Source: Romanomermis culicivorax (lineage: Eukaryota > Nematoda > Enoplea > Mermithida > Mermithidae). Taken from it: 64,000 nucleotides of DNA. Each line of letters begins with the position of its first letter. Position 1 is the stretch's first letter. The stretch is taken from assembly GCA_963922205.1 (NCBI GenBank), contig CAWUHX010000068.1:496001-560000 (forward strand), written 5' to 3'. The notes beneath the pieces were generated by a model. That model saw nothing but the letters and a program-made list of their open reading frames with translations. It was not told where the DNA came from and did no database searches. Shown in pieces: positions 14,945-59,746 of the stretch. The position numbers and the translations under genes are program-made.

Positions 14945-17005
14945 AGCGGGTGGCCGACTGTGCCGTCTGGCCGACTGTGCCGTCTGGCCGACTGTAGCGG
15001 CTGGCCGACTCTGCCGGGTGGCCGACTGTAGCACATAGCCGACTGTACCGGGTGACCGAATTTTTATGTAAGTCCAACCTTATGTAAAACTTTCGCACGT
15101 AATGTGAATAAAATGTTGCTAAATATAGGCTTCAATGCGCAAGATATCATCAAAAAATGCAAGAGCGACGCAAAAATATGCTAATTAAGTGCAGAAACAT
15201 GCTCTTCATAATTTTTTAATTCATTATAAAAGGGTAGATTGATTGATTCTACTGTTTTTTTTTCTAATATTTTTGCAGCAAAAAACTACGAATAAAATAT
15301 GTTAGAACTTGGCAGAAAAAGCATTTTTTAGAAAGATAGAACAAGAACAACGGAATTTCGTCTTTACTTGAGTTAATTATCTAAGGGTCGTACTCTGAAA
15401 TGTCTCTGGCCCATTACTTTTTTTCGATATATGGGTTTAGCTGTGGTAAAAGCCATGGGGCCCTCACATTTGTGGAATATCAGCATGGTGCTTTTATTTG
15501 AAAAAAATATTGGTGAATTTTTTGCATTTTCTGTTCATGAAAATTGAAAATAAGTACTGTAAAATTAAGCTTTTCTTGTATATAAACGCCAAGTACGACC
15601 CTGAATAAAAATAGTTTGAATAGAACGTTTTAAATTCAAATTTTACAGTGCTCAAAACTCCAAAATCATTTTCATTCATTTTTATTACAAATATGCTCAA
15701 CAAAGTGAACGGATACGAGGGGCAAAGTTTCTTGCAAAATGAAAAACTTTTGAATTCAAATAAGTAACCTTGTGTGCTTTTACTTAAGTAGCATATTTTG
15801 CGTTGCTCTTGCATTTCTTGATATTTTGTACATTGAAACCTATATTTAGCAATATTTTATCCACATTTCGTGCACAAAAATTATACATAAGGTTCGACTC
15901 AGAGCACCCCATGGGGGGGGGGGGTATGGGGGGGGGGGTATTACCCCCGTCTTAGATTTGAAAATTCATTTACTACCCCCATAAAAACAGCTCACTATAC
16001 CAAAAAATTTTGGTAGACTTCATCCTCTCCCCAGTAGGTTATACTAATTCGAGAAAAATTGCAGAATGTGTGATTCTGAGGAATTACTCACTGCTCTTTT
16101 TGACACATTTACTGAGCAAATGATAATGGGAAAGTATGCAACTTCTGTGCCATATAGCGATTTTTAGGAAAGGATATCAGTACATTAATATATACTACTT
16201 GTAGGAAATCATTATAAATATAATTAGGAGATGAAATAATGAATGGCTTATGTATATGTGATTAATCAAAAAATCGCCCCTTGGGAAGAAAAACATTATG
16301 TTCTTAAAATTCTGCCTCTTCATGCTCTCCTTTCCTTTTCCCTGCTTCTGCGTTGGGTCTTCTGTGCGCATATGGTTACCCAAGCTATGGCATACTTTCC
16401 TGCTATGAGTTGAGACATGTGAGGTCTGTTGACGTGGATCAGGAGTGGTACTTGGTTTGAAACTAGTAGTTCATAGTCTAATGGGATTAATAATACTAAA
16501 GCCACATTCAGCATCAGGACTTTCAATTCGAAGCACTTTTCCAAGCCTAATCAGTGATGGGATAAGCCCATACTGTTCCAGACGTTTGTGCCCGATTCTT
16601 GAAATGTGCAGGAATCAGTTGGCACAACAGTCTTCAAAGTGTGACTATTCTGTACGTATAATTAGTGCATTAAAGTTGCACGATTGGGAGGTGGAAAATG
16701 GAGTTAAACCAGTAAATGATTTTTGACTGTAAAAAGCATAAAGTAGGGGCATTATTCATTTATGTAAGTTGTATGTGGTTAGAGTACTACATCTCCCCTC
16801 TCCTTGGCAAAAAGTGGTGAGCAAAAAAAAAAAAAAAGGTCACGGCATATTTCAAGTACTACCCTTAAAATTTACGATTTTACCCCTACCTAGATTTTCG
16901 ACCTTGGGGACCTCTGGTTCGACTTAAACATATAAACCATTTTAAATTGAATTCGGCCACCCGGTACAGTCGGCTAGACGGCACAGTCGGCCACCCGGTC
17001 TACAA
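14945..17005. mobile_element. Foldback element with tandem-array arms (17-bp GGCCGACTGTGCCGTCT-type units)
   Basis: The left arm (14945-15058) is about seven 17-bp units of the type CTGGCCGACTGTGCCGT. The right arm (about 16953-17005) is the inverse, with about 2.5 units. Inside these, 15070-15215 and 15770-15895 form a second inverted pair of about 130 bp containing GCTAAATATAGG and GCAAGAGC(A/G)ACGC. The element is split by a hAT-like insertion at 15900-16916; without it the foldback would be about 1.04 kb. No transposase is seen. The arrangement resembles foldback (FB/TFB-type) elements, whose long inverted repeats are built of short tandem units. Confidence 0.75.
15900..16916. mobile_element. 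hAT-like element with CAGAG ends, exact 8-bp duplication GTTCGACT
   Basis: The left end is CAGAGCACCCCATGGGG and the right end is CCTTGGGGACCTCTG (inverse CAGAGGTCCCCAAGG). Exact GTTCGACT copies lie at 15892-15899 and 16917-16924. A frame of 93 codons (16445-16726) lies inside but matches no transposase that I recognise. A short relative is at 21384-21562. It inserted into the right half of the foldback element. Confidence 0.85.
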
Positions 17006-18560
17006 AGTGATAAGATATCCAGGATTGCAATTATGAATATAGATCAATTTGCATAGTGTTTGTTATGCTTTTTTGACAACAAAGAACATATTTCACCAGA
17101 TTTTCGAACAAGTCTCCAAAACTGACTGCATTTGCTGAATTTTGTAAACACGATGAACGACGATAAAAATTTTCGTTATGCTTTTGTACTGCTCATCACG
17201 TACAGTAAGATAAGTGCTGAATTTCGGTCGAAAATACTACTGCTAAAAATGAAATTAAGAGTCTATGATTTGGACGATTCATAATTTATGATCTACATTT
17301 TGCCATACAACTCCTATGATAAAACCAGACGTTTCATACAACGAAAATCAATAATTTCTAGACAAGGAAAACGGGAGCCGAGAAACGATGATAAAATATG
17401 CAAACCATTTTTGTTGGGATATAACCTTGGAGACGCAGCATGGAACAACAAACACTTATGGCAGGTCAAGCGGAAGTACGGCAAGGCAACCTGTGGAAAA
17501 TCGAATAATTATCGATAACAAATAACGAAAATGCATTGTAAGCTTATTAAGATTGAAACGTGGAGTGCGCACGCCAAATCATTTTACAGAGATATCAAAG
17601 ATCAGACTTTCAGGTAGGGTAATATTCAAAGTTTATTAAGTGAGTAAGCCATTTTCTCCCGAGATCAGGTACCCAGTTGCCACACCTGTGCAATGGAGGA
17701 GGCCTGGCGGATGTTCATTTTCTACTATTGATTTAGGGCGGACTACCAAAGGATTTTGGTCGTTTAAGCTTTCTGTACTTGGATTTCCTTAGACAAAACC
17801 AGTTAATATATATTTACTAACCAGAAAAAATCCCACTATACGCCCTCAGGCAGACTGATCATGCATAGGTTAGTTGCCCGTTTTCAGAACTTCAGGTAGG
17901 GGTAGTAGATAAAACCCATCCAGGCTTATTTTAGTTTGAAAGTCATGAGCCAAATGGCTCCCAGTCCCAAGTTTTTAGGAGCCAAATTTAAATTTTGGGA
18001 GCCAAAAATTTGTTATCGATAAATATGCTTGTAACACATTATGGAATCTAACTAAATTATACGGATATTTGATCAGTTGATACGTGTTCAAAAAATGACT
18101 GTTTCAAACTTTATTTCCAGCTGGTGCTTTTCTTGCACAGGCGTCTTTGTACATGCACAAGGATCGACCAAAAAAGCTTTGTTCGGATTTTTTTTTGTTC
18201 GAAAAACACGATACACTTTGTGTTTTTTTGCACGAACGTTCTTCCAGGATAGCACTTGAGTTCATGTCCTTCTGGAACAAGTTGTCTCCTATCTTCCCGG
18301 TGCGCAGCACCGATAATTTATTCAATAAACATAAGGTTAAAATTTTATGTTCAAGAACATGTCTCCGTTTTACAAATTAAAAAATATAGTCATATCTCCA
18401 TGAGTTTGAGAAGATTCAAATTGAACTTGAAATTTCTGAAAATCTCTTCCGCGAGCCTCTGAATTCCAACTCGGCTTCGTGTTTAAAATTATTGTTACAA
18501 AAAAGTTGGAAAACTTTGACTTGTAAAATGCACCAGAATTCTTCTTTTCCGTGTCAAAGC
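17006..18560. other. No recognised gene
   Basis: An unassigned stretch. A 76-codon plus frame at 17288-17518 is Lys/Arg-rich but unsupported. About 17690-17930 resembles repeat fragments near 12.4-12.9 kb. Confidence 0.35.
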
Positions 18561-18798
18561 CAAAGATGCACGGCAAGAATTTCCCAGGGGAGAAGTTCCT
18601 CGGACTGTGGATGGCTGAGCCAAAAAAACCAAAAAAGCTGTACAAGCCAAGCATGTTTTTTATACAAAATATTCATAAAAATCATCAGAAATACTGTCTT
18701 CAAAAAAGTTCGGGAGGGGCTTTTTGATGATTTTTTCAGACCAGTGGGTTTCCAGGGTTTTAGGATTTACCCTCCCTATACCGTTATGTGCACGTATG
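18561..18798 (+). mobile_element. Family-C MITE, degenerate flanks
   Basis: The element runs from CAAAGATGCACGGCAAG to GTGCACGTATG, colinear with 9723-9979. Flanking 8-mers GTCAAAGC and GTTAAACG agree at five positions, which indicates an older insertion. Confidence 0.55.
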
Positions 18799-21375: not shown

Positions 21376-21383
21376 CGTGTTAG

Positions 21384-21562
21384 CAGAGTACCCCATAGGG
21401 AGGGGTATGAGGGGGTATTACATCCACCTAAAGTCCTTAAAATCGATCACAGGCTGTCTAATTTTGAGACAAAATTACGTATTTGGTCGACATTTAGCTA
21501 CAATACCCCCGCAAATTTTCAATTTTCCCTCTATCTGAAAAATCTGACCTTGGGGACCTCTG
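21384..21562. mobile_element. Short hAT-like MITE with CAGAG ends, exact duplication CGTGTTAG
   Basis: This 179-bp element has ends CAGAGTACCCCATAGGG and CCTTGGGGACCTCTG, and exact CGTGTTAG copies on both sides. It is the internally deleted relative of 15900-16916. It landed one base from the end of the element at 21572-22359. Confidence 0.85.
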
Positions 21563-21571
21563 CGTGTTAGC

Positions 21572-22359
21572 CAGTGGTTTTTTGCACTCTGCAAAACTTT
21601 TTCCGCTCGTGCAAAACTTTTTTTTCAGATTTTTTGCATCGTACTAAAATATTTATCAAATGTGGAAAAAAATTTGGGGTTTTCAAATAGAAAAGATATA
21701 TTTTGATGCATTTTAGTAGGTCCAAATCTCAAAATTTTGCGGCGCCTCGCGCCGTTTATAACTTTAATAATCATTATTATGTATTACCAAGCTCAGGTGC
21801 CGCTTTTATCATGTCTACCTTCACTTACCTTTTGATTTTTAATAGTTTTCATCGTCTTAAACGTATTATTTCATGTTTAATTGGCGATCTTCAATATTAT
21901 ATCTTTATATTTAATGAAGATCCGCTTTTTTCTTTCATACATTTTTTGAGGAAGATCAACACGTCAACTTTCTAAACTTTTCGAAGCGTTTGTTCCTTTC
22001 TTAACGTAAATTGAGTTCAAAAGCATCGTGGAAGTATTTTCGGAAAATTTCTACGCTTCTGACTCATAGCTTTTCGGCCAAATTTATAAATGGTTAGGAA
22101 CAAATTATTGGTTTTAAAATTTTTCAAATGACAAAATTTCTAGAAATTACGATTTATGAACACAAAATTCGAATCTAATTTTTGAGATTTTTCCCAAAAA
22201 ATTTTTCACATGTGGAAAAAATTTGACCTCTTTATTTGTGGAAAAACGTTGGTGGGAAAAGTGATATATTTATTTATGGTACAAAGAAAATTTTTGGCGT
22301 GCAAAACCTTTTTGGTAATTTTTTTGCACCGTGCAAAACAGCTCGTGCAAAAAACACTG
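21572..22359. mobile_element. hAT-like element with CAGTGGTTTTTTGCAC ends, duplication GTGTTAGC
   Basis: This 788-bp element begins CAGTGGTTTTTTGCAC and ends GTGCAAAAAACACTG. Exact GTGTTAGC copies lie at 21564-21571 and 22360-22367. It is non-coding. Internal stretches (CGGCGCCTCGCGCCG and the AT-rich sequence after it) are shared with the 1-kb CACTG-ended elements at 26-29 kb, so the families are related or exchange interiors. Confidence 0.82.
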
Positions 22360-22367
22360 GTGTTAGC

Positions 22368-26169: not shown

Positions 26170-27188
26170 CACTGTTTTTTTCCACGAACTTCTTTCCACA
26201 AATGTGGAAAGGGGTCAAATTTTTTTTCCATATGTGGAAGAAAAATTTTTTCGTCTTAAAATCCTCATTTTTTCGCTTAAAAACGCTGACAGACGCTTTA
26301 CCGCACTGTTTTTGAGCTTTTTCAAGCCTTCCGGTGTTTTTAGAGAAGTTAGCTCATTAAAATTGAAGAAAAATATGAAATGTTAGACTAGACTAATCTA
26401 CAAGCATTTATGAACAAATTTTTTAGCAAACTATCCAGGAGCATAAGTGACTTGAATTACGCGAGAAATCGATGGTCAAGTGAAAGCCCAAAAAGATGGT
26501 AATCTTTCCGGCGCCAAGCGCCGGAATTTTTTTTTTGGTATTTCGACATTCTGGGATGCTGGAAAATCAATTTTCCAAACATTTATTTCAAGAATTAGAT
26601 TCGAATTTTGTGTTCAAAAGTCGTAATTTCTAGAATTTCACTTGAAAAATTTTAAAATCTGTAATTTGTTTGTAAACTCTCATGAACTTGGTCGAAAATA
26701 TATGAGTAAGAAGAGTATAAATTTCCGAAAGATATTTCCGTGAAGCTTTTGAATTGATTTTACGTTAGCAAAGAAATAATCGCATCAAAAAGCATAGAGA
26801 CTTGACGTATTGATCTTTCTCAAAAGGAAAAAATGTGAATCTTCATTAAGTATTATGATAAAATATTGAAGATTACCAATTAAAACATGAGATAATACGT
26901 TTAAGATGATGAAAACTATTATAGATTAAGTGTTAAATGAAGGTAGACATAATAAAATCCGCGCCTGAGCTACTCAATAAATAATGATGATTATTAAAGT
27001 CATAACCGGCGCGAAGCGTCGGAAAATTTTGAGATTTGGACCTCCTAAAATGCACCAAAATGCATCTTTTCAATATGAAAACCCCAAATTTTTCCTCCAC
27101 ATTTGTGGAAATACCTCAAAAGTTTTTTCCAAATCCCAGATTTTTTTCCACATTACAGTGCAAACTGCAAATGTGGAAAAAAACAGTG
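26170..27188 (-). mobile_element. CACTG-ended ~1-kb hAT-like element, copy 1 (reverse)
   Basis: This 1,019-bp element starts CACTGTTTTTTTCCACG and ends GTGGAAAAAAACAGTG. Its interior is the inverse of 28253-29264, including a GC hairpin CCGGCGCCAAGCGCCGG at about 26507. No clear target duplication and no open frame of note were seen. Confidence 0.7.
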
Positions 27189-27301
27189 GTGTGAGGTGAG
27201 TAACTCGCCGTTAAGCGCAGCAAAGTTCTCAAACAAGTCAATTTGTTGGAAAACCAAAACCTCAAAAATAAAAATAAAAACCCCTTAAAAACCCCCTAGA
27301 A

Positions 27302-27989
27302 CACTGTTTTTTTTCCACATTTGCACTATAATGTGGAAAAAAAATCTGGAATGTGGAAAAAATTTTTGAGGTCTTTCCACAAATGTGGAAGAAAAATGTG
27401 AGGTTTTCATATTGAAAAGATGCATTTTGGTGCATTTTAGGAGGTCCAAATCTCAAAATTTTCCGGCGCGAGCTTTAATAATCATCATTATTTATTCAGC
27501 AGCTCAGGCACGGCTTTTATCATGTCTACCTTCATTTATCACTTAATCTATAATAGTTTCCATCATCTTAAACGTAGTATCTCATGTTTTAATTGGTAAT
27601 CTTCAACATTTTATCATAATATTTAATGAAGATTCGCATTTTTTCCTTTTAAGAAAGATCAATACGTCAAGTCTCTATGCTTTATGATGTGATTATTTCT
27701 TTGCTAACGTAAAATCAATTCAAAAGCTTCATGGAAATATCTTTCAAAAATTTATACTCTAATTACTCATATATTTTCGACCAAGTTCATGAGAGTTTAC
27801 AAATAAATTACAGATTTTAAAATTTTTCAAGTAGAATTCTAGAAATTACGACTTCTGAACACAAAATTGGAATCTAATTCTAGAAATAAATGTTCGGAAA
27901 ATTGGTTTTCCGGCGTTCTAGAATGTCAATATACCCAAAAAATTTTCCGGCGCTTTTTTGGGTTTTCACTTGTCATCATAGAGGACTTG
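27302..27989 (+). mobile_element. CACTG-ended element, copy 2, missing its right end
   Basis: It starts CACTGTTTTTTTTCCAC and matches the left 70% of 28253-29264. It then stops at the family-A MITE that begins at 27990, so the right end is lost. Confidence 0.6.
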
Positions 27990-28250
27990 ACCATACCTGT
28001 AAGACCTCCGACCAGTTGGGGGGGGGGGCGTAAATCAGAAATTTTGGGGGGGTAGGAAAAAGTCGAAATTTTTCCCAAAAAAGGCCAAAAAACATGCACT
28101 TTTTGGCAAATTTTTTTAATTTTTTCCTAACTGGGGGGGTTGGGGGGGGGGGGGGAGAAATGATTTTGGGTACTGGGTTGGCCGAGTTGGGGGGGGGTCC
28201 CCCCAACCCCCCCCCCAAGTACAGGTATGCCCCAAGTACAGGTACGTATG
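27990..28250 (-). mobile_element. Family-A MITE (reverse) with a duplicated right end
   Basis: The start is CATACCTGTAAGACCTCC. The right end CCCCAAGTACAGGTATG is followed at once by a second near-copy, CCCCAAGTACAGGTACGTATG. No matching 8-bp duplication is visible, so the right end was rearranged. Confidence 0.6.
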
Positions 28251-28252
28251 AG

Positions 28253-29264
28253 CACTGTTTTTTTCCCCAAATCGTGCTTTTTCGGGAAAAAAAATTCGGA
28301 AAGGGGAAAAAAATTTTGGGCTCTTTCCCCATTTGGGGAAGAAAATTTCGGGGATTGGATACAGAAAAGATGCATTTTGGTGCATTTTAGAAGGTCATAA
28401 TCTCAAAATTTTCCGGCGCTTCGCGCCGATTATAACTTTAATAATGATTATTATGCATTACTAACCCCTGGCGCGGCTTTTAGCATGTCTACTTTCATTT
28501 ATCATATAATCTATAATAGTTTTCATCATCTTGAACGTATTATCTCATGTTTTCATTGGTAATCAATATTTTATCATGATATTTAATGAAGATTCGCATT
28601 TTTTCCTTTTGAGAAAGATCAATACGTCAAGTCTCTAAGCTTTTTGATGCAATTATTTCTTTTTTAACGTAAAATCAATTTAAATGCTTCATGGAAATAT
28701 CTTTCGGAAATTTATACTCTGCCTACTCATATATTTTCGACCAAGTATGAGAGTTTACAAATAAATTATACTGGTTTTAAAATTTTTCAAGTAAAATTCT
28801 AGAAATTACGACTTTTGAACACAAAATTCAAATCTACTTCTTGAAATGAACGTTCGGAAAATTGATTTTCCAGCGTCGCAGAGTATCAATACCCAAAAAA
28901 TTTTTCCGGCGCTTCGCGCCGGAAAGATTAACAAACACCCCTTTTAGGTTCTCACTTGTCAACATAGAGGACTTAACTATCGATTTATCATGTAATTCAA
29001 AGTCATTATGCTTTTGGATAGTTTGCTTGAAAGTTTGTTCCAATGCTTGTAGATTAAACTTTGAACTCGAAAATTTCAATTTTTTCCTCAATTTTGATGA
29101 ATTAACGGGTCTAAAAACACCAGAAGGCTTGAAAAAGCCCAAAAACACGTAAATAAAGCGTTTGTGAGCATTTTTAAGCGAAAAAACGACTTTGAAAAAA
29201 TGGGGAAAAAAATTTTGATCCCTTTCCCCATTTGGGGAAAAGGCCCGGGGGGAAAAAAACAGTG
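28253..29264 (+). mobile_element. CACTG-ended ~1-kb hAT-like element, copy 3, 8-bp duplication
   Basis: This 1,012-bp element begins CACTGTTTTTTTCCCC and ends GGGGGAAAAAAACAGTG. Flanks are CGTATGAG (28245-28252) and CGTGTGAG (29265-29272), with one mismatch. In its ends the GTGGAAA words of copy 1 are changed in parallel to GGGGAAA, a family-wide C/A switch. A GC hairpin CCGGCGCTTCGCGCCGG lies at about 28906. Confidence 0.78.
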
Positions 29265-37065: not shown

Positions 37066-39705
37066 ATGATCGAAACCAAAGTTGCCGGTACGGTAGCCGT
37101 CGGCCTCAGTTTGACCACCATCGCTAGCGTACTATTCTACGTGCCGGTTTTGTGGCAAAAAATGGACGTCATCCAAAATAAACTCAAGTTGGAAATGTCC
37201 GAGTTCAACGCCGTGATCGACGACGCTTGGAAAGAGATCATCGTCGTCCGATCGCAAATGGGCAAAGACCAAAATGGCAAAGTTAAACGCCAGGCTCAAG
37301 GAAACTGTCGTAAGTGGTCTCGGGACAATATATGGAGGGAAAATATCAGTGATTCCGGTTCTAAGATTGTTAAAATGGCTTATAATAGTCATGTGATTAT
37401 GCAACTTTTTCACAAAATGTCAGAACAAAGAAAACATTTATTTCAGAATGCTCCGATTCCAAGGGATGCCCGCCAGGTGCCGCCGGCGAACCAGGAGAAA
37501 ATGGCATGGATGGGTAAGACACAAAAAACAAAAAACAATCCGCCAAAAAAGAGTCCTAAAGGTTATCGGTTTTGTTCCTCGAACAGCCTATCCTAGTTTT
37601 TCATCATGAGCATTCGCAGTAAACCGCTGACTTTTTTGTAATCTTTTGCTTCAACAATTGCAATCCAAGCTTACTGAAAAACTGTCTAACCAGTGATGAA
37701 AACTGAACAAACTAAGGTTGAATGTCTAATAATGGTTGATTTTGGTGGTCATGAGCAAAACCACCGTCAGAAATATTTTCAATTTTTACAAATTTTCGAC
37801 ACTTCTTCCATTTAAAGCTGCAGAATGATCCACAATTTGTTTAAAACTAATTGGAATCAAATCTTGATAAATAAGCATCACACTCGTAATTTTTCATTCC
37901 GAACTGGGAGCAGTATTTTTTCTTGAATTTTTCGATTTTCTGGAATCTGTAAAAGAATCGTTTTTGAAAAAGCACAAAAAATTTTGCTTTTGAATTTAGC
38001 TACGCAGACAAGTCTGTGAAATTTTCACGTGAATATTTTTCTATCGAACGCGAAAAGTCAAAATCTCAGATATACTCTGTTTACTGTGACGTAAGATTTT
38101 CAGGCGGACGGTGGTTTTTTGGACCACTCTGCATACGTAACAAGTATCACCCATCTTTCATGTAAAAGGGTTTATGCTGGATTTCCAAGATTTGAACAAG
38201 ACGTCAATAAGTTTGATCAATGGATGAATTAAATGAAAACTGGGCGCTTTCTAAGGTCTGATCAAGTTAAAAATCCACTCGGTGGTCGAATCTCAGGTAG
38301 TCTGCATAATAGATGTTCGGCCATTGTATAAGGAAAGTTTTTTGGTCCTACTGCAAAGTGTACTTTCCCAAAGATGTAGAGTACCTTGAAAGAAGCAATA
38401 TAGGTATACAAACCTGGGCCTTATAACCAAAAGAGTTTTTGCAAATTTGGAAAAGGATGTAAAAATAGGCAAAACTTCCCCCCTGGAAACTCAAAAACTG
38501 CTGGGCCCCAAATCCAAACCCTGAAACAGGCGAAATTTCCTCCACCACACGGATTCTGTCACTCAGGTTTTCCGAACCATATGTTATGTCACTAATAACG
38601 ACGTTTTCGATTATTTACAGTAAAATCGATGTTAGAAGAGTGAGATTATGTATATTTTAATTTTGATGCCGACCAAATGACGATAGTATGGTTGGCAAGA
38701 TCTCGAGGCTAACGTTTGACGCATTGCCTCTCTGGAAGGCATTGAGTGGTCTCAAATTTCCTGAGAAGCTATCGATGAAATTTGATTTCATGCACACCTA
38801 AAAAATATCTAGATTTTGAGCCCAACAGTTTTTGAGCAGGGTGAGGTGTTTTTGCCTGTTTTTTCATTTTTTTCCAAATTTTTAGAAACACTGTAGATTT
38901 TAAGATACTGGTTTGTATACTTACATTGCTCCTTTCAAAGTACCCTACGTCTCTGGAAAAGTGCACTTTGCTGTAGGAGCAAAAGTAATTTTCTCTCTAT
39001 CATGGTATGTACGGCCTGCATGGGGTCAATATATTCAGAAGCCCCTCCAGAGACACTCCAAAAAAGCACATCTTTCACACAAGAGCACACACCCTACATT
39101 TTGTAGCATGGCTGGTGGACCAGGCAAACCAGGACCCAAAGGTGAACGCGGTCGAGTCTACCACCCACTGCCCCCAGTGCCCAATCAATGCCGAGCATGC
39201 CCCGCCGGTCCCGCCGGACCGGTCGGACCAAAAGGCGAAGACGGCAAAGCAGTAAGTGACATTGAATGAAACATCAAAATTTTGAGAGAAAAAATTCAAT
39301 TTTTTTCCAATCCAGGGCAACAAAGGCAAACCGGGAGCAGCCGGACCCGCCGGCAAACCAGGCGACAAAGGAGGCGTCGGTCAACCAGGACCCGCAGGTC
39401 AACCTGGCTCGGACGGCAAATCTGGTCCCGCTGGAACGGCCGGTGGCGCGGGAACGACGTTCACCAAAGGACCGACCGGAGCCAAAGGTAACGCTGGACC
39501 GGCTGGCTTGCCAGGCCCGGCCGGACCGCTCGGTAAAGACGGCCAACCGGGCAAAGACGGATCGACCGGACCGGCCGGACCCCTCGGTAAACCGGGTAAT
39601 CCTGGAGCCAAGGGCGACGCTGGACCAGCCGGCAAACCTGGCTTGCCCGGCAAGGACGCCAAATATTGTCCGTGCCCAAAAAAGACCGGATACAAGACGG
39701 CCTAA
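37066..39705 (+). CDS. Nematode cuticle collagen (4 exons, 281 aa)
   Basis: Exons are 37066-37309, 37447-37513, 39107-39251 and 39316-39705; phases agree and the total of 846 nt ends in TAA. Residues 5-58 are the nematode cuticle collagen N-terminal domain: a hydrophobic anchor, then VLFYVPVLWQKMD and a region rich in acidic and hydrophobic residues. A basic KVKR (72-75) is a likely furin-type processing site. Cys clusters (NCQCS, GCPPG; later QCRACP) bracket short Gly-X-Y blocks, followed by a roughly 115-residue Gly-X-Y domain with brief interruptions. The C-terminus YCPCPKK provides the cysteines typical of these collagens. Such proteins form disulfide-linked trimers in the extracellular cuticle. 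Length is normal for the family. Introns are 137, 1593 and 64 bp. Codons are GC-rich compared with surroundings, which suggests high expression. Confidence 0.95.
37514..39106 (+). other. Large second intron of the collagen gene
   Basis: This 1.6-kb intron is unusually long for a cuticle collagen. It is AT-rich with no recognisable element ends. Open frames here are short and unsupported. Confidence 0.6.
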
Positions 39706-39848: not shown

Positions 39849-41397
39849 TGCGATGAAAGGACAACATAATGATTTTCAAAAATGCACGAAAAGATGGCCA
39901 CAACAGAAAGGGAACAGACCGCCTCGTGAACAAAAAACTGATCATTAGCTTCTTTTTGCATGTTGGATAGATCTTTGAAACCCGCATCCAATGTAGGAAA
40001 TCAAAATTTGAATCCGAAAAACCCATGCAGTTGATTTGGTCGGAGGGGACTCCCTTCCCGAAAGGGATGTTTGTATAACCGGGCCCAGGTCACATAGAAA
40101 AACTTTTTAGGCATTCAAGTCAGTACCTTTAGGTCGTCAAGGTTTCAAAAACAACTGGCGATATTTGAACTTTCGATTTTTGCACTGAAGATTGTCCTTG
40201 TGTCACTGTTTCACATGAAAATGCACAGTGTGGTAATTAACCGGTCGGACAAAGAAACTACGTACCGGATAAGTAAATAGCTCTGAAATCTGAAAATCCT
40301 GAAATCATACGTGTTATGGGGCATTCGAAGGTCCACAGCAACCGCAAAAAGTGACCATTTTCCCATTAACCTTTTTTACACTGAAGAAAAAAGAACAAAA
40401 AAAGGAAGCATCTGGACACTAGAAATATATAAAGATAAATAAGTAAAAGCAAAAAATTAAGATATAAAGTAGATAAGAACGGAGAAAAAATCACAAAGGA
40501 TAAAATTAAACAGGAAATAGAGCGTGCCGAATTGTATAACAATTAAATTGGAGACAATGCTTACTAAGCAATGACAACTTGTAATCTACTGTTTCATGAG
40601 CAAAAAAGAAAAAAGTAGAAGACAAGAAATAAGAAAATGAAAGAGAGCAGAGTCAAAAGATAAAAATGCAAAAATATACATGAACGAAAACATAATTGCA
40701 ACACACGGAACGAACAGAGAAAAATATAAGGTAAAAAGAAAAATGTGGAGAAAATGTTATTGTTCTCTCCGTTGCTCGTTTGGAATCGCCCAATTAAGAA
40801 TCGCTCAGTTGGGAATCGCTCATTTGGGAATAGACCTTCCAGAGGATCCATCGCATGTTGAAACAGCCGGAAAATCGCAGACTGCAAATTCGTGACATAT
40901 TTCATAAGCCATCTAATCACTGGTACAAAAATCATGAAACATTGTGTGCTTTAGGGGTAAGTCCAGAACGTTTTTGATCATTCCGCGTGTTGTCAACAAT
41001 ACATTTGCTCTTTTTTCTCCGCTCAGATCTTATAGCACTGCAGATCCTTCTTCGGAACAGTATTTTTTTAGGCGCTTATTTCGCTTCATGTGTTCAGATG
41101 ACCAAATTGCTTTTTCCTAGACGCGAAACATCACACAGAGAAGCATCTCTTAGCAACCAATACTCAATTATGTAAAATGAACTCAATTGATCGTATCCCA
41201 GGACGTTCGAAGTTACGTCGTCGGTGTCTGCGGCTTTGGCTACAACGTAAATTTGATGCGAATCCATTTTCATGAAGAGTTTGATGCGACTAGAAGATAA
41301 ACATATATCTAAAGACAATTATTCTAAGCTGCCCGCGAGCCATGAGATTAGTAATTTTTTTACTGTAGGCGTATGACAATGCTAGACACGAACCTCT
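39849..41397. other. Intergenic region between collagen and CATIP-like gene
   Basis: Mostly AT-rich. It contains a short minisatellite (40791-40835) and a low-complexity GAAAA-rich stretch (40380-40680). Frames on both strands here are short and without domains. Confidence 0.4.
40791..40835 (+). repeat. Short 15-bp minisatellite (GGAATCGCTCAGTTG-type)
   Basis: About three tandem units of the type GGAATCGC(C/T)CA(A/G)TT occur. Unit size matches the arrays found in the foldback arms elsewhere in the window, but no inverted partner was seen nearby. Confidence 0.5.
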
Positions 41398-47394: not shown

Positions 47395-50300
47395 ATGAGG
47401 AAATTTTACGTTATTGTTGTATTGATTTACTGCATCGGTGAGTTTAATGTTTTTCCATGCGTGTTTGAAACTTTATAAGTTTCTTTGTGGATCTGCAAAG
47501 CATGCTTTCCAGATACCAGCCGAGCATTAGGCATCGGTGGTGCTGCACATGGCCACGAAGGTGAAGATATGACCCATGGCATAACGAGGTAAACTATTTT
47601 TATGTCCAACAAGCTGCAAGCATTTTTTTTGTGTGCGCCTTCATCTCTTAGCTATGTCGGTTCCTCATGATGCTATGATTTGAATAAGTTTTCATCACTT
47701 ATGTTTAACAGAGTGTACTATATTCAAGTGAGCACTTAATGGATGGATTTATGACTATAGATAACGTTTTTCATGACAACTACTCCAAAAATGATGTCTT
47801 TGAACTGCTGTTTTTTTATTGCTCTCATTTCTACCAGTACACACGATGGAACAAAAATATTTCGCATTAACAAATTTTTGTTGCATAGGGCGAAATTTCG
47901 ATACTTGAAAATTCAAGCAACAAAAAGTGGATAGCACAATTGTACATGTGAACTGCTTCTTTTGTTTGGATTATCAGTTCGAGAAGGCAATGCAAGAACA
48001 ATCAATATCGTTCGTTTAAGGAATCCATAAACTGAATATACCACCAACTTTTTTTCTCCATGAGATCATGATTAAAAAGTATAAATAAAGAGTTTCAAGA
48101 TTGAAGATTGAGAATGAAGACAATATTGAGAATTGAAGACTTCAGGTGTTTGAAACCTGTGCCTAAGTATAAAAAGATTCCGTGAAGGCTGCGATCGAGG
48201 AAACGAAAATGTTCCAGCGTTTATTTCCTCAATATGCAGGATAATGCACCGTTCCACTTGTTCAACTATCAAGTTTTCCTTAATTTTCTCATCAAGTCCA
48301 TTAACCTAAAGCAAAAAATCTGCCATGTAAACTTCAAGCGCATCATCCGATGCTGCCACTACAGTACAGTAAACTTCTAACAAATGGAGAGTTTAAGGAA
48401 AACTTTGAGCAAACGGAAAGTTAAATGCCATCAGGGGTTAGTTCTTAAAAAATGATAATTTTCTCTAAGAGCTTTATGAGGGAGAATTTTCGAATTCAAG
48501 ATATGAAATAACACGCATTCCCGTTCTCCAAGTGTAAATTTTGGAATCCTCCGTAGGAATGCGCGTTTGGATAGTCGACAACAGTCTGACTTATGCTGCA
48601 CTAACTAACTTTTTTGCCCATTTGGCCACCTTACACTGAAATTTGCATAAATGTGCTGAACGGAAGAAAGTTTACGTATATCTGATCTCAAGAATATGGT
48701 TAGTAGAAAACCGCATTTGATAAGACTCGTTGATGGTATCATCAAACAAATTTCTTACATGAAGGCTCGATTACATCAGCTCTTCAACTCATTTCTTGAA
48801 GGTATCATCGCCTATTTATCTTGAAATGGCAAACCTGGCGACAACAAGGCTATCATCTCACTAGTCCGACCATCCCAGTACTTCGACCAATGATATAAGC
48901 ATTATTTTTAAGAGATATAAATTCCTAGAATAGGTCATCGTGCAAGCAAATCGACCGTTTCAGTAAGTCGACTGTCCCACGAAGTCTACTATAATGATAA
49001 AATCGATTAGAACCGAACTAGCACAAATTGCACGAAAGTTTAACGATTCCAATTTGCGAGATCAGGTTGCATTCAGGGCTTATGCTTAGGCTAAAGCTTG
49101 CATAAGCTTCAATTTGCTTAGGCTTAGGCTCAGGCTTATCCTTAAGCTCAGGCTTAGGCTTACGCTCAGGCTTATGTGAAGAGGACATGCTTCTGGAACA
49201 GTCGACTTACTGGGACAGTCGACTACTGGCACACAATCACAACAAAACAGGAGTGGAAAAACTCATACTGCAATGACTGCAATCTGATATGTTATACCTT
49301 TCGACTTGAAAGCTGTGTATTTCCATGAAATTTTCGAGATTCATACGTGAGAGAGTTTCACAGATGGACTCTCTATTCCATTCAGACAACATTGCAGTAA
49401 TTAAAATCTTACATATATAGGTTTCGTGACTGTACGTGCTTCACCAATTGCTGACGTCACTTGAGATGTCAATCTTCAGTATGCAAATTTAATTGTAAAG
49501 AAAGTCAATGGCAAACAAAGAATGGGAACTTTACCCAGAAAGCATTATAGCATACTTGTAAATAAGACTTCAGAATTTGGGCTTGAAGGGCTATCTTTCT
49601 GAAATTTTTTCGCGGAGCTTAAGTATTCCACAGGGACATGTTTTTGAATACGACCGATCCATCGGAACTGTGCGCCGTTCGGTGCGACGAATCCATCACT
49701 GTGCAAGACGACGCCCGTGATTTCTTCCGGGAGACGGTCAAAAGCGCCGTTATGTCGCACGATTTTTCGGTTATCGGGAAGCTGTTCGACAAAGAAAAAC
49801 TGAAGCCCTTGTGCAAGTAAAAAGCAAGATTTGTCCACAAAAATTGAGTCACATTGTTTCATAAAATTGCAATCGAAAATCAGTGATCAAGTTTATTGAG
49901 GAAATTCCGCGATAGATCAATATGTTCAGAATGATGATCTGAAATTCTCTGAACATGAGTTTTGAATAATTTTTGGTTTTAGACTGTGTAAATTTTTGAA
50001 ATGATTATATTTGACTTTAACGTAGAAAAATTAATTGAAGTTAACCATTGAAGGAAGATTTCTTCGGTATGCTCTGAAATTGATCAGATACAAATAAATA
50101 TGTAACAGCTAAGACTGGGCAGTAACGGCGAGTTTAGCAAAAGTTGGCTTCTATTCTAAAAGTGCATTTAATTTTGAATAAGAAAGTTAATTTCAATAAC
50201 ATATGGTCAATTTTTTCGATTAGAATAGAAACAAAATGCAATAGCATTGATAATATCGAATTTCCCGGAAAGCGGTTCAACATTTTCTGCGTTTTTGAGT

Positions 50301-53300
50301 CAGTCACAGTCAATATCTCGATTTTCATGTGAAATTAAATCTTTCTTACGTCATTCTATATTTGAAATTTTGTCAACTGGTCCGTCAGGACTCAATTTTG
50401 GGAAATTTAGCTGTTGCATTAATTACAGCAAAATGGAATGTAATTGTTAAAAACAGATTTTTTAAAGTTTTTATCACCAATTGGTGTTGCGTTCGGCTTC
50501 TACCAAGAACTTTTGTCAAAAGTTATTGAGGTTGATCTTCCAATTCAAAATTGAATGCTCCTTCAGATAACATACTGTTTTAAGCTATAAATACTGTAGC
50601 TATCCCCGTAGGAGCCTCAAACAAAGTTTCCTAACACCTTGTAGATTTACCGCGTCAGTACAATATTTTTAGCATATTGACTATTTTTTGAGCGACATTA
50701 ACCAAAAATGAAAGAGCAAATGCCTCCAACACCCCATCAATTTTCAAATGGGTCTCGGAATAGAAAAAATCTGAAGATGACCATGCATCATAAGCTAACA
50801 TTTTCTCTTTTCGAGTTATAGTTCTTACTGCTGCGGCCGATCTGAGACGATTGTTCCACGAATATTTTTTTGGGCTCATTTAGAAAAAATGGGCTTATCA
50901 TAGGTGGCGCGACAGCGTCAACCTATAATATACTTGGCCCCCAAATTTCATGTCCCCCCCCCTCTAGAGCCAAAACGGTAAGAGCTAGAACCTTCGGGTT
51001 TTTTGCATAATATCGGGCATAGGGGCAAACTATGGGGTGCCTTTCGTCATTTCACCTCTATCTGCAATTGGTGCTCGGTGGGGCCCCAAAAACAGGTAAA
51101 AAACGCACTTTTTAAGGCCCCCCAGTTCCACCATGCCCAGCAATCGGTGTGCCATATCCGACCTCCATACTTCGGCCTAAGCATCTTGGGGGTGTAATCT
51201 CAAATGCGAATTTTTTGTTTTTTGAAATATGGCCTCAATTCAATTATATGGTTGTCCAAAGTCCCGGAGAACGCCAAATTGCCCAATTTTGTTATATAAT
51301 ACTTATGGGTTCAAAAAAATAATTTTTTGCAGCATAATGCACTACTAATTTTTTAGCAGTTTCAAATAAACCTGTAGCCTTATTGAGATTTTTGGGCTGC
51401 AAGGGTTTTCGACCATTGGGAATTTGATGGACGCGGTCACTTTACACAAAAAATCATTCCGGGTGTAAACCAGCGTATTTCCGTGTTTTTTCAGTGGAGG
51501 GAGTTTTCGACTGCGGGGAATTCAATAGACGTCCTCACTTGGCACAAATTATCCACGGTGTAAACAAGCGTACTGCTGTAATTTTCTTGTGGTGGGTATT
51601 TTCGACCACGAGGAATTCAATGAATGTGATCACTTTACACCAAAAATTATCCCGTGTGTAAACAAACGTATTTTCGTGATTTTTTTCTGGAAGGGGTTTT
51701 CGACCACGGGGAATTTGATGAATGCGACCACTTTACACAAAAACTTATCCCGGTTGTAAACAAACGTATTTTCGTGATTTCCCGATGGACGGGGTTTTCG
51801 ATCATGGAGAATTTGACGAATGCGATCATCTTACAAAAAAAACTATCGCAGGTGTAAACAAGCATATTTTCGTGATTTTTATAGAAGGGGTTTTTGACTG
51901 TGGGGAATTCAATGGATGTGTCACTTTACACAAAAAATTATTCCGGATTTAACCAACCCTGTTTTCGTGAGTTTTTTGTGGGAGAGGTTTTCGACCACTG
52001 GGAATTTAATGAAAGTGATCACTTTACACACTAATTCATATTGAATGTAAAGAAATGCATTTCTGCGATTTTTGAGGGAAGATGTTTCTGACCATGGGGA
52101 ATTCAATGGACGGAGTCAGTTTACACGAAAAAAAGTCATTTGTGTAAACAAAGGTATTTCTGCGATTTTTTGGGTTGAAGGATTCTAAACCATAAGGAAT
52201 TCAATAGATATGGTCACCTTTCAGTATCTTTACAACGTTTTTGAAGTACTATGCGGTTTACACATCCTTTACTTTTGCCGGAAGTGAGAATTCGTTGCTT
52301 GAAGTTTTTTTTATTGTTTTTTTGAAGTGCAGATGACCAAATTTAAGACTTCAATGTGCTTCTATGAAAGTTTTCGTGCATGGTTGAGGTCCACTAAAAA
52401 GAGGTGAACTAGTTTATTAGAAAATGCCCCGATCGGGCAGAAAAAAGGAGAATATACTTGCTTCGACAGTTGCCATGGTAGAAAAAAAAGTGGACTAGAC
52501 TTTTGAGAACTTGGGTCAAAGTTGGAAAAAATTCACTTTGTTCATATTGAATTTTCATTCTGTCTCAAAAAAATTTTCTATGTCTGTGAAGAAGTATATT
52601 CTGCCTAATGATGATTATTCAAGTTATTTTTTTTAATTTTGAGATTATGAACTTCTAAAATGCACCAAAATGAATATTTTCTCTACCTTATCTCCTCCCT
52701 AAATGGGAAAGAGCCGTTTGTACATGTACAAATGACTACTCCAATTTCGTTTGCCCCAAAAAATTTTCATTTGCCTCCGGCAAAAAAACCCTGGGTTGCA
52801 CTAACTTTTTCGAATAATTTTCTTATCTCTAAAGTGAATAAATATTAAAATGTCTGCAATTCCCAAACGCGAAATCAAATCTCAGTATTAGTTAATCCTG
52901 AAGTGTGTATTGTTTGTCCACTGGAAGAGAATAATTTGGACATTGCGATTAGCTCAACTCTGGATCAGCAATTTAGTCCCGATGTTGAGATTATCCTCAT
53001 GTTGGGTTAGTGCAACCAGCCCCAGGTTTCTTTATAGTTCTGAAAATGACTATAATATGCCTGCCTCACTTTTTTTCAGCTAGTGTGAGAGGCAAGAGTT
53101 TTGAATTGGTCGGGAGTTAGAAAGCTATTGGTTTACCATTTCTTTACATTTGAAATCATGTGCATATAATTTTCATATAGAAAAGTTTTGCCGTAGTTAA
53201 TGCCCGGGGAAGGACAAAATGCACGATTCTGCAGAATATACTTCTTCACAGACATAGAAAATTTTTTTGAGACAGAATGAAAATCCAATATAAAGGAAGT

Positions 53301-56300: not shown

Positions 56301-56735
56301 ATCTGGTGGATGTCAACTAAATTTTAGTCAAACCTTAATCATCAATAACTCAGTCAAAAATGAAGTTATAATTTTAAAAAAATTCCAATTCACGCCTTTA
56401 AATTGATCCCGATGAGATTCTAGCGACCTTGAAAAGTTGAATACTTTCTGGGCGAAGTTTAACTCCCTAATCTCCCCCTCGATGCATGGTCATGACTAAA
56501 ATCGTTCTTTTAAACCTTTATTTTCAGCTTCATCGAGTGCACAAATGAATGCCGAAGCCCAGAAATCATCGCCAAATGTGGCAAACAGGCCAACCGCGAA
56601 TTGTTGTTATTTTATCGTCGGCTGGTCGACACCATGAAACTGGTGTTGATGTTGTATCATAGAGCGCTGACGCAGCAGAAAGAGACGTTGGTCTACGACG
56701 ACCATTGCGACAGAATTGGCGCAGTACCTGTTTGA
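47395..56735 (+). CDS. Secreted Cys-rich CPG4-like protein (6 exons, 269 aa)
   Basis: Exons are 47395-47437, 47513-47588, 49634-49816, 54541-54647, 54930-55122 and 56528-56735; phases agree and the 810 nt end in TGA. Residues 1-15 ([14 protein letters not shown]) form a signal peptide. The mature part has regularly spaced cysteines: [39 protein letters not shown], then ECTNEC and KCG. This Cys order, with the terminal KCGxxA helix, resembles the CPG4 domain found in nematode eggshell/chondroitin proteoglycans and related secreted proteins. It has no chondroitin attachment run that I can see. The DUF19/T20D4.11 type is an alternative. The last residues are helical and lack a membrane anchor. 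Exon structure is well supported; the family name is moderate. Confidence 0.75.
48858..49232. mobile_element. Foldback element with GTCGACTGTCCCAGTA-type arms
   Basis: The left arm (about 48858-48995) has diverged units such as GTCGACTGTCCCACGAAGTC and GACCATCCCAGTACTTCGACC. The right arm (about 49197-49232) has the inverse, ACAGTCGACTTACTGGGACAGTCGAC. The centre holds the telomere-like block. This is the third foldback whose arms are short tandem units. Confidence 0.5.
49078..49175 (+). repeat. Degenerate interstitial telomere-like repeat (TTAGGC)n
   Basis: The core reads, in hexamers from about 49119: TTAGGC TTAGGC TCAGGC, then TTATCC TTAAGC TCAGGC, then TTAGGC TTACGC TCAGGC. The register is kept throughout, and looser copies extend to the left. 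TTAGGC is the nematode telomere unit. Confidence 0.65.
51410..52210 (+). repeat. 98-bp tandem satellite, about 8 units
   Basis: The word GTAAACAA(A/G)CGTATTTTCGTG recurs at 51463, 51560, 51658, 51756, 51854, about 51948, 52046 and 52144, a spacing of 94-98 bp. Each unit also contains a TTTTCGACCACGGGGAATT-like block and CACTTTACACAAAAA. The middle units (51560-51950) are most alike. The unit length is not a multiple of three, so overlapping frames are not coding. Confidence 0.85.
52408..53427. mobile_element. 1,020-bp element with ~200-bp near-identical inverted arms
   Basis: The left arm starts ACTAGTTTATTAGAAAATGC. The right arm is its inverse. The outer ~145 bp of the arms appear identical, and the next ~60 bp differ by a few bases. 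The interior has no open frame but contains a smaller element at 52794-53017. A half-copy lies at 60705-61357. Such arm identity implies recent insertion or ongoing gene conversion. Confidence 0.8.
52794..53017. mobile_element. Small MITE with GGTTGCACTAAC ends
   Basis: It begins GGTTGCACTAAC and ends GTTAGTGCAACC (12-bp perfect inverted ends, 224 bp). It lies inside the 1,020-bp element and is present again at about 61126-61356. It may be an independent nested insertion or the functional core of the larger element. Confidence 0.6.
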
Positions 56736-56835
56736 TAGTCAAGTTTTTCATTGATAAAAATTTCAACTCATCGTAAAATTAATGTTCTGTAAATGTCGCA
56801 ACAACTTTTGTGGATTAATTTTTTGCTTAGTAGTC

Positions 56836-56841
56836 AATAAA
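56836..56841 (+). terminator. AATAAA polyadenylation signal of the CPG4-like gene
   Basis: AATAAA lies 101 bp after the stop codon and is the first canonical signal downstream. Confidence 0.5.
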
Positions 56842-56980
56842 TACCTGTAACTATATGTCTACCCTGGTAAACGCCATTGATACAATCTAAGAAATAGCTG
56901 TTACGATGTGACGAAGTTCACTGCTACAATACGTACTCCTAAAAGCCTTGCTAGTCTAAAAGACTATTCTTATTATTGGA

Positions 56981-58286
56981 CAGGGTGACCAGCACTTACT
57001 GAAAAAAATTCCTGACTTTTCCAGGTTTTCCAGGTTAGATTATGTGGACTTTCCACTTTTTTTAAAAACTATTTTTAGGTAAAAGATGCATTTTAACATG
57101 ACAAGTTTTCTATGACAATACAGGTAACACGTTTCAAAATTTTATTTTAAAGCATTCACAGCACTTTTTTCAATTCTGCCATTTGACTATCAATAAGCGT
57201 CTTTTCTGCTTTTGCCATTTCGTCCAGTTTCCGCTTTTTATTTTCCAATTTCTTTAACTCTAATGCAGCTGACAGTTGCAAGTGTAATCTAAGCAGGTTA
57301 TTTTTAGCACAATGAACAAATGTAAAATGTTCACCGAGTCCCCATTTGCGCTTTGTGACACTGTTGGCAAATTTTATTGAATGCTTTGTCGGAGCAAATG
57401 ACAAAATATGGGCAGGACTTGAGCTTTTCAATACGAAGCTTCAGAAAATAAGGACCTAATCAGAACGAAATCATGTAGGCAATTTTCGTCGTTCTGAGCA
57501 TCAAACTTATAGCAATTTCACTATCGGGAAACATTTTTATCCACAAGTCCTGAACATCTGCACAGCTCCGATACGAGTACCGACTCCAAACACACTTCAT
57601 AGACCAAAAAATTTCAGCCTTGGTCGTTGCTTGGGAAATTATAAAAGGATTTCGACTCGTACCGGGAGTGGTTATAGAAGGCAAAGATGATGCAGGTGTA
57701 GGCGATGTTTCGGGTATCGTTAATGTCAATGGGTCAGTGATTGGGCTTTGAGAAATCAAATCAGGTTTTTTGAAAAAGTGACTCAAACTAGATAAAAATG
57801 CTATTTTTTCTGAGAAAAGTGTTTCGTGGACGTTGAATGACTAAGTACCATTTGCCGGCCCATATTACTCAAACTGAACGACTTCCGACAAATTTTACAA
57901 AAGGCACGACTAGGATCCTTATCCACCAGAAATAACTACTGAACATAATCGTCATTATTTGTAGGGTTAATCCAATCCAATTGGAATGCTGTCTGTTTAT
58001 TCGACATTCTATAACTAGGCTGGTGATTAAATTTACGATGAACAATAGTTATTTTAAACACTATTTTAAATATATTTAATGGCCCAAAAACATTCTAAAT
58101 GAAAGAACAACAACGCAAAACAATAAAATTTTATTCAAAAATGCAATATATTCCTGTTTTCAATTATTAATTAATTGACAACAAAACAAGGTAAAAAACA
58201 TTTTTTCTCAGCACGTTTTTCTGTTTTCCTGACTTTTCCAGAATTCCCTGACTTTTCCAGGTTTTCCAGCTTTGTTGGGCACCCTG
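56981..58286 (-). mobile_element. hAT-type element with CAGGGTGCCC ends carrying a decayed BED-finger gene
   Basis: The left end is CAGGGTGACCAGCA and the right end is TTGTTGGGCACCCTG (inverse CAGGGTGCCCAACAA), typical hAT termini. TTTTCCAGG words recur just inside both ends. The decayed transposase-like gene lies between. Target duplications are no longer recognisable. Confidence 0.75.
57156..58007 (-). pseudogene. BED-type zinc finger / hAT-derived protein, pseudogene
   Basis: From the ATG at 58007 the minus strand reads a BED-like finger (FCKICRKSFSLSNMGRQ... H...H). It then reads a segment with SCADVQDLWIKMFPDSEIA and, later, LGPYFLKL and CPYFVICSDKAFNK. This order is known from hAT-derived zinc-finger proteins with the FSLSNMG signature. 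In-frame stops (TAG at 57936-57938 and 57801-57803, and a TGA before LGPYF) and loss of the catalytic C-terminal half show it is dead. The last part is Lys/Glu-rich coiled coil. Confidence 0.78.
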
Positions 58287-58449
58287 ATTGGGAGTGTCTA
58301 CAGTATGTTTTCGATATGTTTGTTCAGCTCATAATTTGTAGTGGTGCAAGATCGATCTTCTATCATAATGCGGTGAACTTTTTTGATATTAAGTAATTCC
58401 CTTTTGACAAGGTATATGTTTGTCATATCTGTTGTCGTTCCGACGTGTT

Positions 58450-59746
58450 CCCAATACAGTGAAACGCACAACAGCGAAACCCAAAATAGCGAGACTCAAG
58501 ACAGCCATTCTCAATACAGTGAAATCTCAATACAGCCATTCTCAAAACGTCGGGGTCTCAAAACAGCAATTTTCAATACAGCGAAATCTCAATACAGCGA
58601 TACTCAAAACAGCGAAGTCTCAAAAGAGCGATTCTCAAAAGAGTGAATCTAATACAGCGAATAATAAAAAGTTCCATGCATGTAAACCCACACATCATTT
58701 TTATAATAAATATGCTAATTAGTATATTAAAATCATTTTTGCTAGTTGAGATAGTCTATTTTTAGCCTCATTTGGGCATCTTAGTTTCACATGCTTTTGT
58801 GCAGCAGTTGCAGTAGATATGCACCATTCCAAAATCACAAAAAATATCTGCCAGAAAAACATTTTTGCGAAACGCTCGAATATTATCAGAGAGTATCGAA
58901 GGAGTTTTGTCGGTCATCGTCGAATTTTTTGAATGGAAGTTTATCCAACTCAGAGGATCAAAAAAGCTTTGAGCTTAGATGGTCTTGCGTATTGCTGTTA
59001 TTCAACCTGACAAAAAAAATTTGGCGCTGTGTCAAAACGCAAGGCAAGGATCGAATTTGGACTTCAGTTACAAATCAAGATCCGATTGTTCGCAAGAATC
59101 AAGATCACCCACCACCGTGTACGTGAAATTATCATAAAGATTCTCGATCAAAATTGTTTCGTATAGAGCTTAATGGTAAAAAAATTAAATTAATTAAAAT
59201 AATAAAACAAAATGAAATAAGCAAATATAATGAATAAAATAATTAAGCAGTAAAGGCAGAACAAAAAACAAATAATAAAAAACGAAAAGTAAAATAATGT
59301 AATAAAAAGTAAGTAAGAAAATACAACAAAGTACACAACCTGAGAAAATTAAATAAAAAGAAAAAAAGTGGCTCAAAATAAGAAGAATGTTAAAAATAAT
59401 AAGTCAATGAAGGAAAAAAACAAAAAACATGCATGTAGGTTAATGATAAACAAGCCAGAATAATAAGCTGTTGTGTCATGAAAACACATGCCATGGAGCC
59501 ATAATGTTAAAAATCTTTCGATTGGTGTGTGACAACCAGCATCCACCAGATAGGCCATGAGCCAAAACGTCTATCCCGCCCAATTCACTCTAAAGATAAC
59601 TTTTTTTAAATTCGGTATTTTGAAAATCTGTTCCAAGACTTCGCTTTATTGAGAATCACTGTTTTGAGACTCCGCTGTTTTGAGAATCGCTGTGTTGAGT
59701 CTCGCTATTTTGAGTTTTGCTGTTGTGTGTTTTGCTGAATAGTGGT
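58450..59746. mobile_element. Foldback element with 15-16-bp array arms (ACAGCGAAACTCAAA-type)
   Basis: The left arm (58450-58668) is about fourteen 14-16-bp units of the type AAACAGCGA(A/T)(A/T)CTCA. The right arm (59644-59746) holds six or seven inverse units (TTGAGAATCGCTGTTT). Between them lies about 1 kb of AT-rich sequence with no transposase; 59160-59430 is nearly pure A/T with AATAAA words. The right arm runs exactly opposite to the left, as expected for a foldback. Confidence 0.7.

Follow-up and report, generated by a model that had tools for sequence, protein, structure and literature searches.

Foldback elements of the window

The DNA of interest, a 64,000-nucleotide stretch of the nematode Romanomermis culicivorax (hereafter the window; contig C68, positions 496001–560000, in an assembly of 359 Mb and 595 contigs), contains three foldback elements: elements whose inverted arms are built of short tandem units. 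Elements 1, 2 and 3 represent families 1, 2 and 3, while two further short arrays, at 40791 and 61363, represent families 4 and 5 (Table 1). Tandem-built inverted arms also occur in the FB elements of Drosophila. Here, we describe the structure and mobility of these elements, and their very probable relationship to Mutator-like elements (MULEs).

An earlier description, made from the letters of the window alone (the sequence-only reading), had reported inverted arms of 17-, 17- and 15–16-bp units at the three places, with unequal copy numbers on the left and right. Array detection agrees with the unit sizes, the inequality is seen in elements 1 and 3, and the element ends given there are right to within ~10 bp. 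When each arm was compared with the reverse complement of its partner, elements 1, 2 and 3 gave scores of 73, 38 and 121, against shuffle maxima of 26, 23 and 29 (0 of 500 shuffles reached the observed score in each case). The ends of elements 1 and 3 were placed from other copies, and those of element 2 from its GATTGTGT end and the flanking 8-mers. Family-1 elements begin and end with GATTGTGT... and CGTTGTAG..., and family-3 elements with GGCGTGTC... and GGTTTCAC....

Element 1 is interrupted by a nested element, which we read as a later, unrelated insertion rather than as part of the foldback, and as hAT-like from its ends and 8-bp duplication. Thirty-eight other places scored for this insertion are 90–98% identical to it. 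The window region has a second, reversed copy on contig C464 (134 kb; DNA 93–98% identical in the parts compared), which may be the other haplotype. C464 carries elements 1, 2 and 3, as well as the 40.7-kb array and the transposase piece of family 5. The nested hAT-like element is absent there; it is therefore probably young, differing between the two assembled copies.

All of the families examined are dispersed. Forty places were scored for each of family 1 (element 1 minus the nested insert; 342 candidates, main pieces 80–93% identical with self excluded), family 2 (672 candidates), family 3 (1870 candidates) and family 4 (40.7-kb array plus neighbouring sequence; 2006 candidates); such counts include the window and C464 as two places. 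A conserved stretch of the element 3 arm has 564 genome matches with ≤2 mismatches, and its control none. For closer study, 12 further family-1 and 11 further family-3 copies were fetched, hand-picked from the match lists rather than drawn at random.

Arm pairs were also surveyed in the window and 20 loci of 10 kb. Seventeen of the loci lie at arbitrary coordinates on known contigs; the other three are the C464 copy (L009), a locus 6–16 kb before the window (L010) and one adjoining it (L011). Two of the arbitrary loci have complete pairs: L012, of family 5, and L022, of family 4 (positions 2063–3452). L010 has another family (family 6), and L014 and L026 each have a single arm. Inverted pairs scoring 51–73 at L017 were left uncounted because their units are self-complementary. 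These results bear on the two arrays that the sequence-only reading had left without a visible partner. For the array at 40791–40835 this is correct as far as the window goes (no inverted partner within 3.5 kb, best score 20), yet the family has its complete pair at L022. The array at 61363–61480 does have a partner: it lies 1.5 kb past the window end, at L011:1540–1671 (window-equivalent 65540–65671), with an arm-to-arm score of 149 against a shuffle maximum of 26.

Table 1. Features of the window, with continuations into the adjoining locus L011
Feature	Position	Strand	Details
Element 1, apparently a MULE with an internal deletion (group with 17-bp units and GATTGTGT end)	14937–17007	+	ends set by 13 further copies (C464 included)
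Element 1, left target duplication TAATAAGA	14929–14936		C464 copy: TAATAAGA on both sides
Element 1, left arm array	14942–15059	+	17-bp units, ~6.9 copies
Nested hAT-like element	15900–16916		CAGAG ends; exact 8-bp duplication GTTCGACT at 15892–15899 and 16917–16924
Element 1, right arm, inverted	16950–17007	-	~3 units by eye
Element 1, right target duplication TGATAAGA	17008–17015		7/8
Family 4, single arm and subterminal part	40714–40836		15-bp unit TGAGCGATTCCCAAT on reverse strand
Element 2, short foldback	48849–49238	-	17-bp units; of its two ends, the right one (49238) has GATTGTGT
Element 2, left target duplication ACAACAAG	48841–48848		
Element 2, degenerate GCCTAA (TTAGGC) hexamer array	49083–49175	-	
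Element 2, right target duplication ACAACAAA	49239–49246		7/8
Element 3, non-autonomous foldback	58442–59752	+	15–16-bp units
Element 3, left target duplication GTCGTTCC	58434–58441		7/8
Element 3, left arm array	58470–58660	+	~12.5 units
Element 3, right arm array	59636–59714	-	~5 units (5.1)
Element 3, right target duplication GTTGTTCC	59753–59760		C464 copy: GTTGTTCC on both sides
Family-5 element, left part	61354–64000	+	continues to window-equivalent 65682 (L011:1682)
Family-5 borders, TGCAACCC and CGCAACCC	61346–61353; L011:1683–1690		7/8 agree
Family-5 left arm array, unit TTAGGACGCAGGACA	61369–61471	+	
Family-5 MULE catalytic-domain stretch, start	63887–64000	+	continues at L011:1–213 and L011:248–415
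Nematode cuticle collagen N-terminal domain	37066–37596		PF01484, E=1e-10

Target duplications and empty sites

Elements 1, 2 and 3 are each flanked by 8-mers that agree at seven of eight positions. Across 14 copies of family 1—13 independent ones, since the window and C464 represent one insertion—the left and right flanking 8-mers are identical at 100 of 112 positions (shuffle mean 37.3, maximum 79; 0 of 10000 shuffles reach this). Other lengths at identical borders agree far less: 33/98 positions for 7 bp, 35/126 for 9 bp and 36/140 for 10 bp. In family 3, where the window and C464 again represent one insertion, both ends could be located in nine of 13 copies, and 51 of 72 positions agree (shuffle mean 21.9, maximum 46; 0 of 10000). 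The copies dropped from this count are L042, which contains a stretch of N, and L045, L046 and L047, in each of which one end was not located; by eye, L045 has AAGGTAGA on both sides. Duplications of ~9 bp are seen by eye at L053, L054 and L022.

Nineteen copies (12 of family 1 and seven of family 3) were used in an empty-site test, in which the two flanks were joined with a single 8-mer and compared with the sequence in hand. A match runs across the join in six of the 19, and paralogous empty sites were obtained for four family-1 copies: (i) L034, at L021:1076–1260 (82% identity over 188 columns, with an ungapped join), (ii) L035, at window 9857–9731, (iii) L040, at L008, L020 and window 26605–26479, and (iv) L036, at L016 and L023, where one base is gapped next to the 8-mer. 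L035 and L040 have some further matches that are gapped at or close to the join, and a weak match of L043 (72%) was not used as an empty site. The claim that these are mobile foldback elements is thus borne out: the copies are dispersed, 8 bp of target are duplicated, and empty sites exist.

Two repeats of other kinds are also present. Firstly, a 98-bp tandem repeat (GGGTTTTCGACCACGGGGAATTCAATG...) occupies window 51403–52172, L053:4483–5200 and L011:2945–3730; it also surrounds the family-3 copy L050, which has no target duplication. Secondly, window 26530–28900 contains nested long inverted repeats of up to 470 bp that are 93% complementary; this is a different repeat, and the source of one of the family-1 empty sites.

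Transposase sequence between the arms

The sequence-only reading found no transposase. This is true of the three elements themselves, in which none was seen, but not of the set as a whole. Between the 61.4-kb array and its partner lies what appears, from its domain matches, to be a decayed MULE gene that begins inside the window, in an element of 4.3 kb. The MULE profile PF10551 matches it twice (E=1.5e-4 for profile positions 2–83 of 99, and E=0.028 for positions 76–99), and further transposase-like pieces, recognized by eye and without Pfam support, lie at 62766–62957 and 63092–63304. Copies of the full piece, 80–87% identical, occur on contigs C118, C70, C346, C179 and C63; the C118 locus (L056) also has a family-5 arm.

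A second case is provided by a long family-1 copy, C164:400807–404862. Here, the two parts of the short form, 705 bp on the left and 313 bp on the right, are ~3 kb apart and flank MULE pieces (PF10551, E=4.1e-8). The short form equals the long form minus 3006 bp, with TTTG common to both borders at the junction. Because MULE coding pieces stand between the same arms in the long copy, element 1 reads as an internal-deletion derivative of a longer, transposase-bearing element.

MULE domains were also sought in the genome at large, where the search reported 122 matches from 150 scored of 248 candidates. Four of the loci were picked by their MULE domain, regardless of arms, and two of these proved to have tandem arms: L053 (MULE E=5.8e-16, FLYWCH E=1.2e-12) has 15-bp-unit arms, and L054 (MULE E=1.1e-8, FLYWCH E=5.2e-8) has 14-bp-unit arms. 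Both of these, in which FLYWCH and MULE domains occur together, also match the family-5 piece; the other two loci, L058 and L059, are not among its matches. The MULE cores of family 5, family 1, L053 and L054 are 31–48% identical to one another, and that of L058 is 22–31% identical to these four, partly over short aligned lengths. L058:15–3158 is a MULE of another group and is probably young, with 390-bp inverted repeats that are 98% identical and open frames encoding 414 and 250 aa.

We put at about 90% the probability that the foldbacks are the ends and deletion derivatives of Mutator-like (Phantom/Muta-like MULE) DNA transposons, with terminal inverted repeats in which an array of 14–17-bp units comes after a short outer motif. 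MULEs as a superfamily generate 8–11-bp target duplications (PMC6446971). The superfamily features found here are (i) a MULE-type DDE domain between the ends, in the long family-1 copy, L053, L054 and, weakly, family 5, and (ii) target duplications of 8 bp, in families 1 and 3. Families 2, 3, 4 and 6 are probably MULEs as well, judging by their architecture, ends and duplication length. Five separate-looking oddities of one window would in this way fall under one explanation.

Several observations weigh against this reading. With regard to target duplications, none is present in L031 (family 1) or in L050 and L051 (family 3), and those of L043, L044 and L049 agree at only six of eight positions. 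The long family-1 copy is flanked by GCCAATAC and CTTATGAC, which do not form a target duplication, and so may have been rearranged; it has a putative FLYWCH part. In family 5, both PF10551 matches fall below the curated cut-off, and a Pfam search at E ≤ 1 gave nothing for the FLYWCH-like piece at 62763–63059. No transposase-bearing copy has so far been seen for families 2, 3, 4 and 6 (the comparison of positions covered family 3, whose listed places, among them ~100 of the 564 pattern places, were set by eye against the listed MULE places, and none is near one). Finally, not every MULE of this genome has tandem arms: the 390-bp inverted repeats of L058 are without tandem arrays, and no inverted repeats were found in the 4 kb surrounding L059.

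The arrangement has close published parallels. In the Muta MULEs of Aedes aegypti (14 families in one genome), 10 of the 12 long-arm families have units of 9–15 bp, duplications are 8–9 bp, short derivatives number in the hundreds, and unit number varies in Muta1, which is called a type 2 Foldback transposable element; in Muta5 and Muta1, an outer motif of 8–10 bp is followed by short tandem units in both arms (PMC5225508). The present elements are alike in their outer motif and tandem units, duplications in the 8-bp range, several families per genome and short derivatives. What sets them apart is the sequence of their units and ends, with 17-bp units and the GATTGTGT octamer, and a nematode host; they are known from sequence alone. 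Tm1 of Meloidogyne (Mutator/Phantom/Foldback) shares with them the nematode host and unequal arms of short units, ~14 bp in Tm1. In both, the short outer motifs differ between the two ends, those of Tm1 being CGGTTAA and CCTACCC. Tm1 has 9-bp duplications, and its Tm1-A copies, like L053 and L054 here, combine FLYWCH and MULE (PMC3169594). Membership of Tm1 was considered and rejected: families 1 and 3 make 8-bp rather than 9-bp duplications, and the ends of these two families differ from the two Tm1 motifs. Phantom-clade MULEs (group 20) have 8–10-bp duplications and, in some members, a FLYWCH finger (PMC6446971), to which L053 and L054 are likened by their FLYWCH and MULE domains and by duplication length.

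The sequence-only reading had proposed an undescribed class of element. That proposal does not hold: MULE coding sequence lies between the arms at two further loci as well as in families 1 and 5, and Aedes is already known to have MULEs whose tandem-built arms vary in copy number, in several families with different units per genome (PMC5225508), Tm1 of Meloidogyne being a nematode case (PMC3169594). No title pointing to these particular families emerged from a literature search (Repbase and most subscription papers lay outside it); hence, we treat them as new families, with a foldback architecture already known from mosquitoes and root-knot nematodes.

How might the arms work? For their function, Galileo of Drosophila (P superfamily) can serve as a model by analogy: its long arms have tandem units that hold multiple transposase-binding sites, and its THAP domain binds its own arm repeats, while those of other subfamilies are bound more weakly or not at all (PMC3688188). 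Galileo differs in having a P-type transposase with a THAP domain, in place of FLYWCH-MULE here. By this analogy, a FLYWCH-MULE transposase supplied by full-length copies would bind the tandem units through its FLYWCH domain, pair both ends, and cut at the outer motif, and insertion would follow with a stagger of 8–9 bp. Short copies would arise by internal deletion, as seen for family 1, and be mobilised in trans. Unit number would drift by slippage or unequal exchange, so that left and right arms come to differ, and the units would become family-specific as the binding site changes in step with the binding domain.

An alternative is that the units are maintained mainly as targets of an anti-silencing or regulatory protein encoded by the element, like VANC in the VANDAL elements of Arabidopsis, rather than as transposase sites. 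VANDAL elements have tandem target motifs for such a protein that change between related elements; VANC binds short motifs in fast-changing tandem repeats that differ between related families, a pattern resembling the one found here. The repeats of VANC21, however, lie in introns and upstream regions (PMC5735166), while the present arrays stand at both termini, beside a fixed outer motif. Short copies that lack genes have them too (no second gene was searched for), and we regard this alternative as unlikely.

Less probable again is movement by a non-MULE transposase, of P/Galileo or hAT type, with the arms being convergent. Elements of those types make duplications of 7–8 bp. Families 1 and 3 have duplications of exactly 8 bp, against 9 bp in Tm1 (PMC3169594), and Galileo is a P-type transposon with such arms (PMC3688188). 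Against this stand the MULE domains that the arms enclose in families 1 and 5, L053 and L054, as well as the duplication lengths of MULEs (8–11 bp; PMC6446971) and of Muta families (8–9 bp; PMC5225508), and what little probability this alternative keeps is for families 2, 3, 4 and 6, since P and hAT transposases were not searched for. Chance satellites—unrelated short arrays lying in inverted pairs by accident—would fit the shortness and imperfection of the single arrays and the many other tandem repeats of the genome, but have next to no probability given the 40 scored places for each of families 1, 2 and 3, the fixed 8-bp duplications and the MULE genes between the arms, and are refuted by the junctions and empty sites. 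Within this one assembly, the elements are multi-copy, with defined junctions and empty sites, the three points on which the sequence-only reading had let its own proposal depend.

Arm units and the outer octamer

The arm units of the families had been described as unrelated. Neither that view nor its opposite, that all units are homologous, is supported: of 55 unit pairs, nine reach p<0.05 (~3 being expected by chance, with the consensus units chosen by the analyst), and three of them have 0 of 400 shuffles. The three are element 3 and family 4, whose units match at 11 of 15 positions, and two other pairs of 17-bp units (13/17 and 12/17). Elements 1 and 2, which share the GATTGTGT end, have units alike at 11 of 17 positions (p 0.02, uncorrected). 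For elements 1 and 3, the earlier description stands: 7 of 15 positions match (p 0.9975), and there is no likeness. In place of a mechanism that creates arms from different seeds, as had been suggested, the pattern more probably reflects arm units that have diverged from one MULE family to another.

The GATTGTGT end is common to families 1, 2 and 6 and to the single arms at L014 and L026. Of the 13 GATTGTGT octamers listed in the surveyed loci, six border such arrays (two of these being one insertion). A pattern of GATTGTGT, 9–10 bases and CGA[AC][CT]GT..C has 319 matches in the genome, and the reversed pattern has one; among the ~100 matches listed, graded groups can be made out by eye, with family 1 a large part. 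The fixity of the half-unit CGA..GT is not independent evidence, because the half-unit formed part of the search pattern; likewise, a conservation profile of the 17-bp unit is biased, its units having been picked by their first seven bases, and is not used as evidence. Families 3, 4 and 5 have ends other than GATTGTGT, and no descent of their units from the 17-bp group is claimed.

Two of the GATTGTGT-ended families also contain arrays of telomere type, TTAGGC being the nematode telomere repeat. The degenerate GCCTAA array in element 2 has 27 hexamer matches (shuffle mean 0.49, maximum 7), and family 6 has a similar one between its arms, at L010:505–571 (29 hexamers, shuffle maximum 11); the two have the same orientation relative to the GATTGTGT end. 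The genome has 25,431 overlapping exact matches to five-fold TTAGGC, and most of those listed are far from a contig start. The idea that such arrays are a general cargo of foldbacks finds no support: by eye, no listed telomere-type place (~100, on contigs C1–C4 only) is near a listed place of these families.

As a class of element, the foldbacks add little beyond Muta and Tm1. What remains of most interest is that the arm units have diversified while the outer octamer next to them is fixed. Tentatively, and with the odds against it, we suggest that one MULE lineage has kept its outer octamer GATTGTGT and one half-unit (CGA..GT) fixed, while the other half split into family-specific versions that were amplified into arms, giving a natural series of mutually exclusive pairs of binding array and DNA-binding domain. 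The hundreds of GATTGTGT-ended copies in graded families could serve as a test bed for how binding sites and binding domains split.

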